Shown in pieces: positions 7,983 through 62,854 of a stretch of DNA of 64,000 nt. The notes under the pieces were generated by a model that saw nothing but the letters and a program-made list of their open reading frames with translations, was not told where the DNA came from and ran no database searches. A program made the position numbers and the translations under genes. Numbering within the stretch: the stretch's first letter is position 1; every line of letters begins with the position of its first letter. Source of the DNA: a virus. The stretch spans positions 62,001-126,000 of IMG/VR virus record IMGVR_UViG_3300035670_000030. One strand, 5' to 3'.

Positions 7983-8400
7983 CGTCATCTTCTTCATTGT
8001 TTGGTGGATTATAATTTTCTTTATTATCTAAGGTTTTAAGAAAAAATTGTTCTATTTGATTTAATATATTGTTATATTTTTCTTGATATATTTCTGTACT
8101 TTCTGTAATTTCATCACTATTTTGAAGTGCTGAGTAAAATATATTTTTTGGTGAATTTAATATCTCATTAATAATTTTTAAATCGGCACCAGCTATGTTT
8201 TTATGTGCAAATTTTTTCCAAGTTTTAATAAATTCTTTATGAACATATTTTTCTTGAAATTCATTTTCTTGATTTATATAGTTTGCTATATAATTAAAAC
8301 AAAAAAATAGCATTGACCATTGAAGATTCTGCATAAATTTTGTTTCCAATGTTTGATCCATTGAATCACGCAAATTTTTATGCAAATCTTTATCTTTCAT
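7969..8400 (-). CDS. Unknown protein with acidic C-terminal tail
   Basis: 143 residues, no recognised domain. Mostly helical with an aromatic stretch WSMLFFCFNYIANYI (about 28-42), too polar around it to be a convincing membrane segment, and a NEEDDDEYA acidic end. Its ATG overlaps the stop of the reductase gene (TAATG) and its end overlaps gmd, so it is co-translated with both. Function not inferred. Confidence 0.55.
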   Translation of the reverse strand: MKDKDLHKNLRDSMDQTLETKFMQNLQWSMLFFCFNYIANYINQENEFQEKYVHKEFIKTWKKFAHKNIAGADLKIINEILNSPKNIFYSALQNSDEITESTEIYQEKYNNILNQIEQFFLKTLDNKENYNPPNNEEDDDEYA

Positions 8401-10379
8401 TATTTAATAGGACATACTCCCCCCTCACATTCGATGCCTTCTAAAGTATCACTGCCTAAATTTTGATTTATGTTTAAAACTGGTTTAACTTTAGATTTTT
8501 TACTTTCATATTGTTCTTTGCTAATTTCTTCATATGGAGCTTGTTTAAAACCATGTTTTTGTCTTAATAAGAAACTAACAGATTTAATTCCATTTTCATA
8601 GTTTTTAGAAAGCCAATTTTTAAGATCTGAAAGTTCTGTTTCACTATAATAAGCAGTAACACTAACTGCGTTGTCAGACCAGATCTCCTGAAGTTTTTTC
8701 ACCATTTCCAATTGCTGAATTACTCCCATATCATCTGCAAACATTGCGCCATCTGGAGTTTCACATGGAAACTCTACAACTACAGTATCATGGTTTTCAG
8801 AACCATCAAAATTAACAACATATTCAGTATGATAACCCAAATCTCTACAGTAATTTACGAGAGGATCATTGCTTGCCATACGTATTCTTCTAATATAATA
8901 TTTAGAATAAGCAGGATGAACCCCTGGAGTTGCTCCAGCTAACAGGCTTAATGTTCCACTTGGCTTGACAGTCGTAAGTTTAATACTACGATTCCAACCA
9001 CGTTCTTTACTCCATTCTTTATCAAATTTACGAAGCTCTTTATAACATACATCAAGCCAATCAATTTTATCAAGAGACTGGCAAATACCTGTAACACCTA
9101 ATCCAAGACGCATATTTTTATGCACAATTTTATTTGTCTCCTCATGGATGAATGGAAGTGCCGCAATAGCTTTTTGAGTTTTATATAAAAGCTTCGCACA
9201 AAGAATAAGCTCTTCTTTAGAGTTTATATTATTTAAATATAGTTCAGAAAGATTACAGCATTCATAAGAAGCAAGACTAATTTCACCACAAGGATTTGTG
9301 CCCACAACGTTATCTTCATCAGTTGGATAAAGATTACTATCTTTCATCAGACCATCTTTTAAGCGGCCATATTTTTGAGAAAGGGGGAGGTTAAAAAATC
9401 CATAAGGCTCGCCCTTCGCAAATCCTGTTTGAGAATCTAATACATATCCATTACTCCAGATCTCATTAGAAATATGAGAAAAGTCATCTGCATAAATTGT
9501 GTTATTAGACATCGCTCTCCAGTTAGGAATATTACCTAATGACCAATTTTTAGCTCGAAGAAAAAGATAATCATCAGGATCTCCAATAGCAATTTGTGCG
9601 CTACGACGAACATTGCCAGAAACAACAATTCCACCAATAATATTACAAATATCAAGAACGTCAACAGAACGAAGTTTTTTACCTTCTCTAGATTGAAAAA
9701 TCTTGTTAATTTTTTCGATACCATCTAATAGAATTTGAGGGCCACTTGCAATACCACCAAAACCTCCAATTCTTTCACCAGCGCCGCGAATAAGAATTGT
9801 AGAATAATTAAAAGATTTACCATTAACAAAAAATGCCTCTAAAACTTTTTCTAAAAGACGAATCCATCCTTCACGACTATCAGGGACAATAAAATCAGCA
9901 TCTTTAGTATTTTTATGTGTTATATTTACTCCCTTTTTAATACGTGGTAACTCATGAATATCTTCTCTACGAATAGAGAACCCTACTCCACCACCTAACA
10001 TTAAATTTTCAAAAAGAAAAAGAAATGATTTAATACTATTCATTGAAACATTCCAACAATTCAAAAGCGAATTTGCCCCAAACCGATCAACAGTTGGTGT
10101 TCCAAGTTGCCATAGCATTCTTCCAGCAAAATTGCACTTAAGATTAAAAATCAAATCAAAAAGTTGTTCCGCTTCTTCTTGTGTATAATTTGCTCCAATT
10201 TTTTGAGCCCCATTAATACAACGACGAATTGTTTCGTGCCACTCTTCAGTCTTTCCATCTTCTTTAAGACGAGCATAAGTTCTTTTATAAACAATATACC
10301 CCAAACCATTAAAACCCCAATTAGGTTGTTTATCTGCGTATTTATTTGCGAATTTTTCTGAAATAATTTCTGTGTTCAT
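8400..10379 (-). CDS. nrdJ: Adenosylcobalamin-dependent ribonucleoside-triphosphate reductase (class II)
   Basis: 659 residues. Reduces ribonucleotides to deoxyribonucleotides using a coenzyme B12-derived radical, supplying phage DNA synthesis. Key residues are visible: C108 in LLNCWNVSM and C375 (SYECCNLSEL) as the redox pair, NPCGEI at 362-367 with thiyl-radical C364 and E366, the VKPSGTLSLLAGATPG loop, and a C-terminal C651-x4-C656 tail that re-reduces the active site. The layout is that of the monomeric Lactobacillus-type enzyme, but shorter than its roughly 740 residues. Preceded by its own promoter-like sequence. B12 dependence means the host must have or take up cobalamin. Confidence 0.93.
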   Translation of the reverse strand: MNTEIISEKFANKYADKQPNWGFNGLGYIVYKRTYARLKEDGKTEEWHETIRRCINGAQKIGANYTQEEAEQLFDLIFNLKCNFAGRMLWQLGTPTVDRFGANSLLNCWNVSMNSIKSFLFLFENLMLGGGVGFSIRREDIHELPRIKKGVNITHKNTKDADFIVPDSREGWIRLLEKVLEAFFVNGKSFNYSTILIRGAGERIGGFGGIASGPQILLDGIEKINKIFQSREGKKLRSVDVLDICNIIGGIVVSGNVRRSAQIAIGDPDDYLFLRAKNWSLGNIPNWRAMSNNTIYADDFSHISNEIWSNGYVLDSQTGFAKGEPYGFFNLPLSQKYGRLKDGLMKDSNLYPTDEDNVVGTNPCGEISLASYECCNLSELYLNNINSKEELILCAKLLYKTQKAIAALPFIHEETNKIVHKNMRLGLGVTGICQSLDKIDWLDVCYKELRKFDKEWSKERGWNRSIKLTTVKPSGTLSLLAGATPGVHPAYSKYYIRRIRMASNDPLVNYCRDLGYHTEYVVNFDGSENHDTVVVEFPCETPDGAMFADDMGVIQQLEMVKKLQEIWSDNAVSVTAYYSETELSDLKNWLSKNYENGIKSVSFLLRQKHGFKQAPYEEISKEQYESKKSKVKPVLNINQNLGSDTLEGIECEGGVCPIK

Positions 10380-37700: not shown

Positions 37701-40700
37701 TAATGGGACCGCCAAGAGCAAGGGCGAAGCCTCCTGCTTGACCAGCAGCCCCTAATCTTTGCCCAGCTGTTCCTGCTTGAGCTTTTTTGACTTGATTTCT
37801 AGCGGCTCGAATTTCATCTGCACTTTGTTTTCTAGAAGCTCTAAAAGCTGCTGGAGAATCGTAATTAATATTGGCTTTTGCTTGTTCTCTAGCATTTGCT
37901 AAATTAACTTTCGCACTATTAACATTAGATCTTGTTAGTTCGGCTAAAGATTGTTTATACTGTTGACCAGCCCCTTGCAAACCAAAAGCTAGAAATCCTA
38001 ATTGTGTTACTACTGCTGTTACAGCCGTAGCTAAATCTGAACCTTGAACGTCTTGATCTGCAAGTGCGAAATTAGGAATATAACCACTAGCAAAACCTTT
38101 ACTACGCATTGCGCTTTTTCTTGCGCTTTTTGTTGGCTCATCACGTTTATTAAATACTCCAATACCCATTGGATTTACGCTTGTTAAGGCTTTTTCTTGT
38201 GCAAGATAAATTTGGTTTTTCGGAATACCAGCTGCTCGCTCTCGACTAACTGCGTCTTGAAGAGCCGCAAAATTTGGTATATAGCCAGAAGCTTTTCCAC
38301 GAAAGCCTCTTGTTAAACCACGCTCACGTAATTCTCTTCCAGTTAAACCTCTTTTTACTTTTGCTCCCCCAAACCCAAATTCTTCTCTTAATATTTTTTT
38401 TCTAAAACTTGTTACAGAATCTCCGCCAGTTGTTGCTTTAAAATCCGCTTTTACAATACCACCAATTCCAAATAAGCTTTGAATTTTTTCTATTCCTTTT
38501 CCAGCGCGAACATCAAAATCACCAGCTCCAGTATTAGATCTAGCAGCTTCATAACCTAGAGCTGTAGTTATTCCAACTTCAAAGGCCGCGCCAATTGCAC
38601 TTAAAATAGCACCTTTAGCGCCTTTAGCAGATTGAAATCCTTTTTCTAAATCAGATGGAGAAATTGGTTTTCCTGGGGGCGCTAATTTTTTAGTATAACT
38701 TGCGGTTCTATTTAAAACACTTTGATATATTTGATTTTCTAATTTATTACTAGCTTCAGCTTCTCCAATTAATTTTGGCCCATAAGCTGTTTGTGGTGGA
38801 AATATATATTTAATGTTATTTGCTGTATCAGTAACTACGCCACCAGGAATTGGCTTATCAGGTGTTGATAATCTACCAGGAGCAGTAGAAGGAATTAGAT
38901 ATCCATATTTTTTAGCTCCCGATACTATTACTTCTTTAGCAGTTTGAGTACCTTTTTGAAAATTAGGAATAAATCCTTTGCCGTAAGTTGGAATTACTGC
39001 CGAATCTCCGTTTTTACCAAAATTAGTAATCTCAATCTCACGATTGTTTTTTATAAACTTTTTACCATCAATCGTTCCTTTGCTCATTTGAGCTTTAGGA
39101 TTTTTTGCTCCTAAAGTTCTAGCTAATAGTTCTTCACGAGCAAAATCATCTTTGGCAAAATTTGGAATATAACCAGTAGCTCTTCCTGGTCTTCCAGTAG
39201 GTACAACTGGGACACCACCAGAAACACGAACGCCAGCTCCAGCAAAAGCTTTTGAAATTTGTGTTGCGATAACAGCTTGTTTTTGTAGTTCAACAGTTTG
39301 TTGTTGCAAATTAGCTAATAATTGATTAGCGGCAGCATTTAGACCTTTTTCACCTTGTAAAGCAAGCTGTAATAATTTGGGATTATTCGATAAAATTTGG
39401 TTAATACTTGCTTGTAAATCTCTTTGCTGTGTTGCCGCAGTGTTTAAACCTAAAAGTTGTTTAACACTTCCAGTAGCAAAACTTGCTAAATCTTTAAATA
39501 ATTTTAATAAAACGCCACCAATTAATACCAAACCTGGACCAGCAATAAATTGGCCTAATCCGTCTAGAATTCCTCTACCTAGTACAGTACCGAATCCTTG
39601 AGCATCACTTTCGTTAAATCCTGCAAGTAATTGATTTGTCCCCCCAACCAATCTTTCAATAGATGGCCCAAATAATCTTTCACCGCCAACGGCAGCCAAT
39701 TGTCTTGCATTTTCTTGAAGAGCATTTAATTGAGCCGCATAAGTTTTATTTAATTCTTCATTTCTTCTAACAGCTTGGTCTGTAGCATTCGCAGAAACAT
39801 TTAAGGCATTATTATAAATCGAATATTCTTTTCCTAAATCAGCTAAAGCAGCTTTTAAAATGTTAATTTGGAATACGCCACCGACCTGTTCTGCAACATA
39901 TGCTTGTTGTTGTGATCCAAGAGTATCATAGACTCTACCCAAATCTTGAAGAAGTTGAATTGTTGATTTTATTTGTCCTCCAGCACCAACAGTCTCAACA
40001 CCCAAACTTTCTAATAAGCTTACAACCTTAGTTCTTTGCAATCTAGTAAAAATTGTTTTAAAAGAGTTACCAATAACAGCACCGCCACGAGCAGTTGTTT
40101 GTTGTGCAGCTGTAACAATAGCTATTAATTCATTTAATGAGACTCCTGATTGAGCAGCGCTACTACCAACACGGGCAACTGCGTCCGCAAGATCTGCAGA
40201 ACTAACAGCGAAAGCTGCATCTACAGTTGCAAATTTATTGACAACCTCAGTCGCACTAACAGCTTGGCTAGCAAATGAATTTACTGCCGCAGTAAGAGCT
40301 TCAACACTCTTAACCGTATCCAAACCACTCAAACGTGATAAAATAAGCGCTTCACTTGTTCTCTTAAGAGTTTCTTCTACACCAAGACCTTGACGAGAGA
40401 ATTCTGTTGCAGCTTCTGCTACAGCTTGAAAAGTTTGTCCTGTATTTCTAGCAATATTAAAAAGTTCTCCACCAAATTTTTGCAACTCTTTTGTTGAAAC
40501 ATTAAGAATAACATTGATATCTTGTAAAGACTTTTGGACTTCAACGACTGAAGTTAAAAGTGCTGTAAAAGCTCTTTCTACTCCAAATATAATACCAGCA
40601 CTTGCTCCGAAGGCAATAACACGAGCATTTGAAGCATCTAATGATTTATTAAATTCATTAACCTGTCCTGTAATCCGACCAAGAGGTTGATCGCCCTTAG

Positions 40701-55178: not shown

Positions 55179-57083
55179 TCAATCGACTATTACATAAAAA
55201 GTAGCTGGATCTTTTACTGATAGCGCATTATATTCAGCCTGTGTTAGCTTAATCATATTATTAATAGTACCGTTACTTCTAACTGCTTCACCGCTTAAAA
55301 GAACGCCAGTACCCTGAACATTTGGCCTATTTTCAAAAGAAACGGTTCCGAGTAGCGATACAAGCACGTTTGATGGTCCGAACTGGCTAAAATATACTAT
55401 TGGTTGATTATTACTAGCCTTTATCACCAAAGAATCTGTACCATCCTGGTTATCTTCTGAAGTAAAATATGGAACTGTATTAATCTCAAGCGATGGTATT
55501 ATCTGAATTCTTTCAAATGATTTAATACCACTAATATTTTGATCACCAGTCGTATAAACTACATTATTTAAAGATACATCCGCAGCTTCTCCCTGTAATA
55601 AAACACCAGTCCCATTAACAGTTGGACGAGAAATAAAATTTTTAGTACCACTAATAGTTTGTTCTCCAGTATTATATACTAAATTATTACCATAAAATTC
55701 TTCTGCAATAATATTACCTTCACTTTCAACATTACTTTGAGTGGTTAAAGATGCTTTTGATATATATATACCGAAATCGTTAACTCCTATGCATTGAACT
55801 CTACCATCACTAGACATGCCAACGCTATATGAAAGGCCTGCTGCTGGTAATGGTGAATTAATAATCGTGTCACCATAATTGTTGGAAGTATAAAGGCTAG
55901 AAAGGGCAGCAAATAATAAAATTTTACCATTAGATGAGTTTGCCATATCAAATGCGGAAGTAGTATTATTTATTATTTGCCAATTTTGCCCATAATCGAT
56001 AGATTTGGCAAATATACCTCCCACGGTTGTTACAGCTACTTGAATTCTACCATCATTAGACATTTTAATGGATCGCCAAGCTCTACTCGTGTCTTTATTA
56101 GTCCAAAAATTACCGTAATCATATGAAACAGCAAGTGACTGACTATCTCTACAAGCAGCTTGAATCCTTCCATCGCTAGACATGCTGATACCATTCCATT
56201 TAATAGATCCAATAGAGTCGAATGTTTTTTGAACCCATGTGTTTCCATAATCTGTGGATACATAAATATTGCCATTATATTGAACGGCGGTTTGAATTCT
56301 GCCATCACTAGACATAGATACGTAGGGAGCCCCAACTGAGAACGTGTTAAGACGATTTACCCATGTATTTCCATAATCTGTCGATACAAAAAGTCTACTT
56401 TCCGTAGGACTACTTAATACAGCTCCAATTGTTATAAATTTTCCATCAACTGACATTGCTATTGATAAAATATTTGGAGATCTAGTAGAACTTAAGCCTA
56501 GTTCGAATTTTGTAGACCATGTTTTCCCATAGTCTTCAGATATATTTATAATTGAGTTTTTAGAGATGCTGTTTTGAGTATATTGAATTGAAGTCGCTAT
56601 AAGATTACCTTTGCTAGATATTGCTATGGCATTATATATTTTATTTGTACCAGATGTATTTGCTGCAGGTAATGCTAGTTCCCATCCCGTTCCAATTGTT
56701 GATGTTTTTAAATCCCACGGATTTTCTTCAATTCGAGTTCTTCCTAAATATAAGCTATTATTATTTTGGCCTATTAAAATATTTCCAGCTGAAAATGAGC
56801 CACCACCTGAAGGCTCATTCGTTATATTTTTAATCCCACTAATTAATTGATTTCCAGTTGTATAAACAACATTACTTGGAGCAACAGAATTAAATTCAAC
56901 CCATTGATTACCAGTATTATAATAATAATGTTTATTTTCTCCAGTTACATATACAATTATTCCAGCATAAGCTTTATTACTTGTGACTAATGCATTTCGT
57001 TCAGTTTGATTAGAAACGACAATTCTTGAATCTAATGGTACTGATGATGCTAAATCAAAATTTGTAGATACTTGTATTCCCAT
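55179..57083 (-). CDS. Tail fibre: BNR/Asp-box propeller with TGNQxISGIK repeats
   Basis: 634 residues. The N-terminal STNFDLASSVPLDSRIVVSN region resembles a fibre base. VVYTTGNQLISGIK, VYNTGEQTISGTK and VVYTTGDQNISGIK are three copies of a phage-fibre repeat. Asp boxes (STDYGNTW, SYDYGNFW) with SSDGRIQ strands form a propeller. The C-terminus LTQAEYNALSVKDPATFYVIVD is a typical fibre/baseplate end. Two bases from its neighbour; likely host recognition. Confidence 0.7.
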   Translation of the reverse strand: MGIQVSTNFDLASSVPLDSRIVVSNQTERNALVTSNKAYAGIIVYVTGENKHYYYNTGNQWVEFNSVAPSNVVYTTGNQLISGIKNITNEPSGGGSFSAGNILIGQNNNSLYLGRTRIEENPWDLKTSTIGTGWELALPAANTSGTNKIYNAIAISSKGNLIATSIQYTQNSISKNSIINISEDYGKTWSTKFELGLSSTRSPNILSIAMSVDGKFITIGAVLSSPTESRLFVSTDYGNTWVNRLNTFSVGAPYVSMSSDGRIQTAVQYNGNIYVSTDYGNTWVQKTFDSIGSIKWNGISMSSDGRIQAACRDSQSLAVSYDYGNFWTNKDTSRAWRSIKMSNDGRIQVAVTTVGGIFAKSIDYGQNWQIINNTTSAFDMANSSNGKILLFAALSSLYTSNNYGDTIINSPLPAAGLSYSVGMSSDGRVQCIGVNDFGIYISKASLTTQSNVESEGNIIAEEFYGNNLVYNTGEQTISGTKNFISRPTVNGTGVLLQGEAADVSLNNVVYTTGDQNISGIKSFERIQIIPSLEINTVPYFTSEDNQDGTDSLVIKASNNQPIVYFSQFGPSNVLVSLLGTVSFENRPNVQGTGVLLSGEAVRSNGTINNMIKLTQAEYNALSVKDPATFYVIVD

Positions 57084-61934: not shown

Positions 61935-62854
61935 TTTGTATCAAAGTAATATTGTAAATCTATTTTACAGGCTTCATTGTCCATTTTTAAAATATATAAA
62001 GTTTTGTCTCTAGCTTCTTCACGCCCATCACAAAAAACAAATTGTAAATTATCATATTTTCTTAATAGTTGTCTCATATTATGGGCTATAAATTCACCAG
62101 ATGCTTTACCAAATTTTTGTTTTTGATACATCATATTATTTAAGGTAGACTCAACTACAACCACAATATAACCTTCTAATTTTTTAGCTTTTTGGATCTC
62201 ACGTTCGAATCTTTCACGACCACCACTTAAAGTTCCATATAAATCAGATAAACTTTTTCTTTCTATAGCTAATTTGTTATTAGGGTGAAGTGAGTAATCT
62301 CCATACTCTAATTTTGATTCAATTAAAGTAAGCTCTTCAAAATGAAATGGCTTTTGTTCACGACTATCTACAATAATTTGCGGAGTAGGGGTGAATTGAA
62401 TTTCTTCAGGAATTTGATAATTAAATCTGGAATGCAATCCAATTTTTTTACATAAATTATTGTAATCCATTCCAGAAAAAACTTCTATTGTGCTTACTGG
62501 TAATAAACAATTTATACTTTGAGCTTCTACTTGACCAGGAGCACTTTCTAAGTTTTTTAAATCGCAATATTGTTTTAATTTACTTTTAAAGTAATCAGCG
62601 CACTCTTCTTTAGAAAGCGTCTTCAACCAATTTTTATAGTTTTTCTTATCAACAAAATCACAAGTAATATATTGATCAAAGGACTTATATTCTAGTTTTT
62701 TACCATCAAAACGATCAATACGTTTCCAATAAGTTTCAAAATAAGTCTTACAAGAAAGTTTATGATAACTTCTTAAATGCTTTTGTAACTCAGCGAAATA
62801 ATTAAATTCTTCGCCACAAACTTTACATTTTAAGTATATTTTGTTATTATTCAT
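61922..62854 (-). CDS. C2H2 zinc finger - ERCC4 nuclease
   Basis: 310 residues. N-terminal zinc finger with C10, C13, H26 and H31. The nuclease core is IVDSREQKPF (D163, R165, E166), LEYGDYSL (D186) and LAIERKSLSDL (E198-R-K200), followed by GGRERFEREI and VVVVEST, the XPF/Mus81/ERCC4 set (D...GDY...ERK...D). It should cut branched or flapped DNA. Its place between the putative small terminase and TerL suggests processing of packaging or replication intermediates. Confidence 0.85.
   Translation of the reverse strand: MNNNKIYLKCKVCGEEFNYFAELQKHLRSYHKLSCKTYFETYWKRIDRFDGKKLEYKSFDQYITCDFVDKKNYKNWLKTLSKEECADYFKSKLKQYCDLKNLESAPGQVEAQSINCLLPVSTIEVFSGMDYNNLCKKIGLHSRFNYQIPEEIQFTPTPQIIVDSREQKPFHFEELTLIESKLEYGDYSLHPNNKLAIERKSLSDLYGTLSGGRERFEREIQKAKKLEGYIVVVVESTLNNMMYQKQKFGKASGEFIAHNMRQLLRKYDNLQFVFCDGREEARDKTLYILKMDNEACKIDLQYYFDTKWPL

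Follow-up and report, generated by a model that had tools for sequence, protein, structure and literature searches.

Peptide motifs bound exchangeable cassettes, one of them nuclease-like, in tape measure proteins of uncultured phages

The tape measure protein encoded in the analysed window (64,000 nt, positions 62,001 to 126,000 of IMG/VR virus record IMGVR_UViG_3300035670_000030) is divided into modules by four copies of a short peptide motif, and among related proteins the domains between such motifs are swapped as whole units from phage to phage. The largest module of the window protein is, by its active-site signature, nuclease-like, and this catalytic signature is conserved throughout a large and otherwise divergent family.

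Homology to PhageMin_Tail and to PHROG tape measure families, the length of the protein and its location in a tail gene block, further along which a gene matches a major tail protein PHROG, identify the open reading frame as a tape measure gene (Table 1). A previous sequence-only reading had proposed a PD-(D/E)xK nuclease-like insert at residues 614–837 (window 38287–38958), between the second and third of four GYIPNF motifs. These coordinates are exact and four motif copies are indeed present, although copy 2 reads GFIPNF, the one variant among them. A pattern search of the whole 143,730-base record returned these four G[YF]IPNF-encoding sites only, and they divide this part of the protein into one large and two small cassettes. 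The four copies are written in different codons, so that the repeat is conserved as a peptide and not as DNA. We also considered whether the motif acts at the DNA level, as a repeat or a site of recombination, and rejected this; codon agreement between copies within one protein lies slightly above expectation (57% vs. 52%), and the signal is mainly at the protein level.

Table 1. Features of the tape measure gene, with positions in the window
Feature	Position	Strand	Basis
Tape measure protein, 2000 aa	34795..40797	(-)	ORF; Pfam PhageMin_Tail E 1e-24; PHROG tape measure families to 8e-52
PhageMin_Tail core, residues 116–307	39877..40452	(-)	Pfam match
Motif copy 1, GYIPNF, residues 542–547	39157..39174	(-)	
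Small cassette, residues 548–607; recurrent 58–125 aa class	38977..39156	(-)	Clustering
Motif copy 2, GFIPNF, residues 608–613	38959..38976	(-)	
Nuclease-like cassette, residues 614–837	38287..38958	(-)	Family alignments A1, A3, A4; 157 members by profile
E740, conserved acid in helix; E in 152, D in 5 of 157	38578..38580	(-)	
D762, invariant acid, 157/157	38512..38514	(-)	
D785-F-K787, (D/E)xK element; D/E in 155/157, K in 152/157	38437..38445	(-)	
K801, conserved K/Q in next helix; K in 56, Q in 16 of 72	38395..38397	(-)	
Motif copy 3, GYIPNF, residues 838–843	38269..38286	(-)	
Small cassette, residues 844–904; class of first small cassette	38086..38268	(-)	Single-linkage clustering
Motif copy 4, GYIPNF, residues 905–910	38068..38085	(-)	

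Across IMG/VR, GYIPNFA is a marker of tape measures and of the cassette boundaries within them. The heptapeptide occurs in 369 stretches and its variant GFIPNFA in at least 120; the extended consensus of 689 instances reads A-[AS]-x-G-[YF]-[IV]-P-N-F-A, outside which conservation is low. Among the matches listed, 189 of 218 ORFs with either heptapeptide contained at least two motif copies. Searching 257 Gb of GTDB genomes revealed GYIPNFA in 107 stretches, only four of which lay in multi-copy, tape-measure-like ORFs. These four are located on contigs from MAGs carrying the labels Verrucomicrobiales, Flavobacteriaceae (two) and Woesebacteria, and the contigs may come from phages and have been binned with those genomes; together with the IMG/VR matches listed, they make up the loci analysed here. 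The cassettes are absent from deposited phages, where the N-terminal tape measure core alone finds matches, and the string GYIPNF appears in no open-access PMC paper.

The layout follows a simple scheme, with n cassettes held within n+1 motifs and one motif common to adjacent cassettes. Cassettes fall into two classes, namely recurrent small ones (58–125 aa) and large ones (≥160 aa). Small cassettes flank the large one in the window and in many other tape measures; 81 cassettes of 58–125 aa were clustered, the conserved wording being GKKFIKNN.EIEI.NFG.NGDSAVIP and NP.G.GV.N..DEP, and no function was found for the class. The motif-selected set comprised 228 distinct large cassettes among the matches listed, 129 of which belong to the family of the window cassette according to a profile built without the motif ends. 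The others form dozens of clusters, many without recognisable function. Those that could be named in relatives' tape measures include an SNase domain (L099_438, Pfam E 2.3e-9, 38 bits vs. a cut-off of 21), GNAT acetyltransferases (E 7e-5 and 2e-4, the former above the cut-off), a HIGH_NTase1_ass domain (E 6e-8, above the cut-off), a GHKL ATPase (HATPase, E 4e-5, just under the cut-off), a ParB-like domain (E 0.0075, under the cut-off) and P-loop-like cassettes with 19 members (best Pfam AAA match, E 0.007). Some relatives combine three to six cassettes from different families in one tape measure.

Several further cassettes caught our attention by their size or wording. The very large cassette L262:4142-6166:- starts P-loop-like and continues with a HIGH-type nucleotidyltransferase match (E 6e-8), and an equally designated very large cassette, L256:5309-7057:+, has a GHKL/Hsp90-type ATPase match (E 4e-5). 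At the start of L294:496-1284:-, L102:657-1352:- and L255:7900-8568:-, the wording (N/T)LYRG(Q/T/M)S is, by eye, reminiscent of ADP-ribosyltransferases. Readings of certain cassettes as ADP-ribosyltransferase, kinase or HAD were derived from motifs by eye, without Pfam support, and are not claimed. L011:789-1907:+ and L280:3750-5318:+ contain a possible metalloprotease-like element (ANEATHVNQG in L011) with no Pfam match; no peptidase family was among the Pfam matches of the window tape measure or of the cassettes.

Comparison of tape measures revealed how these domains change. In 890 pairs with N-terminal parts 50–97% identical, mean identity was 69% there vs. 30% in the largest cassette, and the cargo diverged more than the N-terminal part in 98% of pairs. 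Taken alone, this divergence could be explained by domains that evolve fast in place, without exchange. However, proteins otherwise 95–100% identical show step changes exactly at the motif. In six pairs, both 100-aa flanks are at least 85% identical, while the cargo is unrelated or 24–36% identical. For instance, L351 and L355 share 100% identity over 543 aa upstream and the first small cassette, 27–30% in the cargo and 95% in the last small cassette; the corresponding values before, within and after the cargo are 98%, 27–28% and 96% for L266/L291, and 99%, 24% and 99% for L092/L123. L078/L357 form a further swap pair. In the other two, formed by L238 with L293 and L312, an SNase-like domain stands in place of an unrelated one (the SNase match of L293 is itself weak, E 0.018; its cassette clusters with L099_438, E 2e-9). 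Measured in ten-residue windows, identity drops from 10/10 to 0–5/10 just inside the motif and recovers at the next motif. Replacement across families, SNase for an unrelated domain, lies beyond point mutation, leaving fast evolution in place barely tenable and indeed refuted unless the contigs are misassembled. Misassembly of metagenomic contigs could fake a swap, but is unlikely as a general cause because all six pairs switch at the motif.

The window protein fits this picture. Its identity with L074 is 84–85% for the N-terminal part and for the two small cassettes vs. 43% for the nuclease-like cassette; with L071, it is 93% for the N-terminal part vs. 34% for the cassette. The notion of a repeat-bracketed cargo, as put forward in the sequence-only reading, is strongly supported, both by the large number of other cassettes and by the clean exchanges that occur at the motif. 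Close relatives (L071 and the window, L048 and L052) differ in cassette content by hundreds of residues, a difference that would alter tail length if cassettes counted towards it; the rule relating tape measure and tail length may not count cassettes.

Within the window cassette, E740, GDFDV (residues 759–763) and ADFK787 are present exactly at the positions previously given. The pattern recurring in the family is E..D..(D/E)xK..K/Q, corresponding to E740, D762, D785-x-K787 and K801 in the window. With membership defined by profile, 151 of 157 members possess the complete E/D, D and (D/E)xK set. An alignment of 72 members clustered without reference to the triad gave the same picture, D762 and K787 being invariant in all 72, E740 being E or D in all 72, with D/E at position 785 in 71 members and K/Q at position 801 in every one. 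Across 99 diverse members, mean column identity is ~14%, and the only invariant columns outside the boundary motif are a G, a D and a K; members of the close subfamily retain GDFDV and ADFK almost intact. A loose E-D-(D/E)xK regular expression matched 92% of the real family vs. ~3% of shuffled members, a comparison that is partly circular as the membership profile includes the triad columns, and it matched 1.6% of shuffles of the window cassette. The triad had been allowed to be a chance pattern; the shuffles and the 151 complete members argue against this. What did not hold was the choice of D760 as catalytic acid, which is found in 40 of 157 members, vs. all 157 for the second D of GDFDV. 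Retention of the triad in homologues, which had been set as a test, therefore stands for E740, D785 and K787, kept in close and distant members alike, with D762 replacing D760.

Such conservation also bears on whether cassettes are structural, i.e., globular spacers of variable sequence that adjust the length or rigidity of the tail, or chaperone contact, and are inactive in the host. Their location in the length-measuring protein, the total length of which differs by hundreds of residues among close relatives with different cassettes, would suit this explanation. Yet spacers would have no need of an invariant D and K at ~20% background identity, or of domains recognisable as SNase, GNAT and nucleotidyltransferase, and we consider this explanation improbable.

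Across homologues, the window family thus presents, in order, the E (or D), D and (D/E)xK of PD-(D/E)xK nucleases, with a K/Q of motif IV in the following helix at K801. The fold is a different matter. Two AlphaFold models were computed, one from 67 sequences with the window first (pLDDT 81.4, pTM 0.74) and the other from 99 sequences with L014 first (pLDDT 82.6, pTM 0.73). Both display an upstream beta-meander, the helix with E, an isolated bridge at D, a helix, the (D/E)xK strand and a helix; most strands come from upstream. The alpha-beta-beta-beta-alpha-beta core, by which the sequence-only reading had proposed to judge a PD-(D/E)xK fold, is absent from both of these predicted structures. 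Three Foldseek searches with the two models against PDB and BFVD gave no match, including none to PD-(D/E)xK structures; G-protein folds listed for the second model had a TM of ~0.2 and were rejected.

Searches for distant homologues gave a similar result. Searches of Pfam, PHROG and PDB sequences with residues 614–837, a check likewise proposed in advance, yielded nothing above chance for any member, whether the cassette was used alone or as profiles. In hhalign comparisons with reversed controls, the family matched a self-built Mrr_cat profile (21 sequences gathered from genomes) at a probability below 1%, which is not significant, the aligned part being the FE helix. Compared by hhalign with a set of cassettes of tighter PD-(D/E)xK-like pattern, the family aligned at the GYIPNF ends alone. 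With the window cassette as query, a single near-identical contig was found, and nothing in 50,697 deposited phages. PADLOC restriction-enzyme matches of single members (E 0.006–0.04) are at chance level and were discarded, as was ribosomal protein eS1, a recurring weak PDB match of profiles A1, A3 and A4 in the E-to-D stretch (E 0.02–0.2) that is probably due to chance.

The family hence resembles PD-(D/E)xK nucleases (Mrr, Hjc and restriction-enzyme types) in the E of a G-x-x-F-E helix, the D, the (D/E)xK and the helix with K/Q, but differs from them in a predicted fold that lacks the core, in the helix that parts D from the DxK strand, and in the insignificant similarity to Mrr_cat. Since the canonical core was looked for and is missing, we do not file the cassette as a PD-(D/E)xK member; by its active-site signature it is nuclease-like, with membership of the superfamily not confirmed. 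A domain with another fold, whether an enzyme or a ligand binder and perhaps no nuclease at all, in which these residues make up a metal or substrate site of a different kind, would leave the cargo-bay architecture standing. The three- or four-stranded beta-meander followed by helices and one strand at DxK, the missing structural match and the Mrr comparison that yields the FE helix and nothing more are all in line with such a domain. On the other hand, the order and types of the residues, the G-x-x-F-E helix and the following K/Q helix equal motifs I–IV of PD-(D/E)xK, and L242_257, L087_27, L099_639 and L300_987 occupy the same slot with a tighter, superfamily-typical E..D..ExK. We therefore rate another fold as the less likely explanation.

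Nuclease-like, exchangeable and fixed in their place in the gene, the nuclease cassettes might alternatively be selfish elements invading tape measure genes in the manner of homing endonucleases or inteins. However, we saw no splicing elements; the cassette lies in frame, and differing codons encode the copies of its flanking peptide motif; moreover, many cassettes are not nucleases, and several may stand in series in one protein. This origin is accordingly very improbable.

On balance, we think it probable that residues 542–910 form a cargo bay and that 614–837 are most likely a metal-dependent nuclease, delivered with the tape measure and acting on DNA. The bay would be delimited by A-[AS]-x-G-[YF]-[IV]-P-N-F-A at each boundary, and the nuclease would have a PD-(D/E)xK-type site composed of E740, D762, D785-x-K787 and K801. 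Tape measures fill the tail tube, from which they exit at infection, and make contact with the inner membrane (PMC13190303, PMC10770324); a cassette lying between the N-terminal core and the remainder of the protein would consequently travel in the tail and enter too. From ejection onward, we infer that the cassette would reach the host envelope or cytoplasm and might act on DNA, be it the host chromosome, plasmids or the genomes of competing phages, ahead of phage gene expression. The motif could be either a cleavage signal freeing each domain or a docking element keeping cargo in register in the tube.

Cytoplasm-type enzymes, kept active sites and frequent replacement suggest effectors directed at functions or defences of the host. 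With slightly less assurance, we lean towards a general payload system in many uncultured phages, whose plug-in slots would allow domains to be exchanged without disturbing tail assembly and to be delivered before gene expression, the effectors probably serving counter-defence or takeover and the motif being a release or docking signal. That hundreds of uncultured phages swap enzymes in this slot suggests a set of tools injected for use as infection begins.

Tape measures carrying peptidoglycan hydrolase or peptidase domains, e.g. that of mycobacteriophage TM4, act on the cell wall. The proteins described here share the presence of an enzymatic domain with them, but their cassettes (nuclease, GNAT, nucleotidyltransferase, P-loop) look intracellular. 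Another example is gp96 of Thermus phage P23-45, a tape measure fused to a virion RNA polymerase (PMC10770324), in which an enzyme domain within the tape measure is likewise thought to enter the cell and act early; in contrast to the present proteins, gp96 has one N-terminal RNA polymerase, with no interchangeable cassette series or GYIPNF described. Polyvalent proteins (Iyer et al. 2017, PMC5512222) similarly join many effector, nuclease and acetyltransferase-type domains in one polypeptide, as do the relatives with three to six cassettes of different families. They are predicted to enter with the DNA and to be separated later by internal metallopeptidase domains, whereas none was recognised in the cassettes; the main text of that study does not mention tape measure proteins. 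Sle1 and Tme of contractile injection systems also combine a tape-measure scaffold with an active globular part ejected from the tube, but belong to bacterial injection systems and have a C-terminal effector and no motif-delimited cassettes (PMC13277306).

Enzymes on tape measures are therefore known singly, and a motif-delimited, exchangeable slot was not found in the open-access PMC literature. Mosaic signals in tape measures were noted in a 2023 study on the shuffling of phage proteins, which confirmed no recent case (PMC10684548); L351/L355, L266/L291 and L238/L293 are recent cases of the kind that it could not confirm. The motif alone offers a route to early-acting phage effectors, as well as a testable handle on the passage of cargo through the narrow tail tube and, possibly, a natural rule for the sites at which a tape measure tolerates an inserted domain.

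Two other genes in the window are worth recording. One, at 8400–10379 (-), encodes a B12-dependent (class II) ribonucleotide reductase, with Pfam matches to RNR_Alpha, the barrel and class II insertion domains. The other, at 55179–57083 (-), encodes a candidate receptor-binding or tail protein of 634 aa, which has BNR/beta-propeller repeats, matches the baseplate family BppL_N and carries a phage tail tip domain at its C-terminus.
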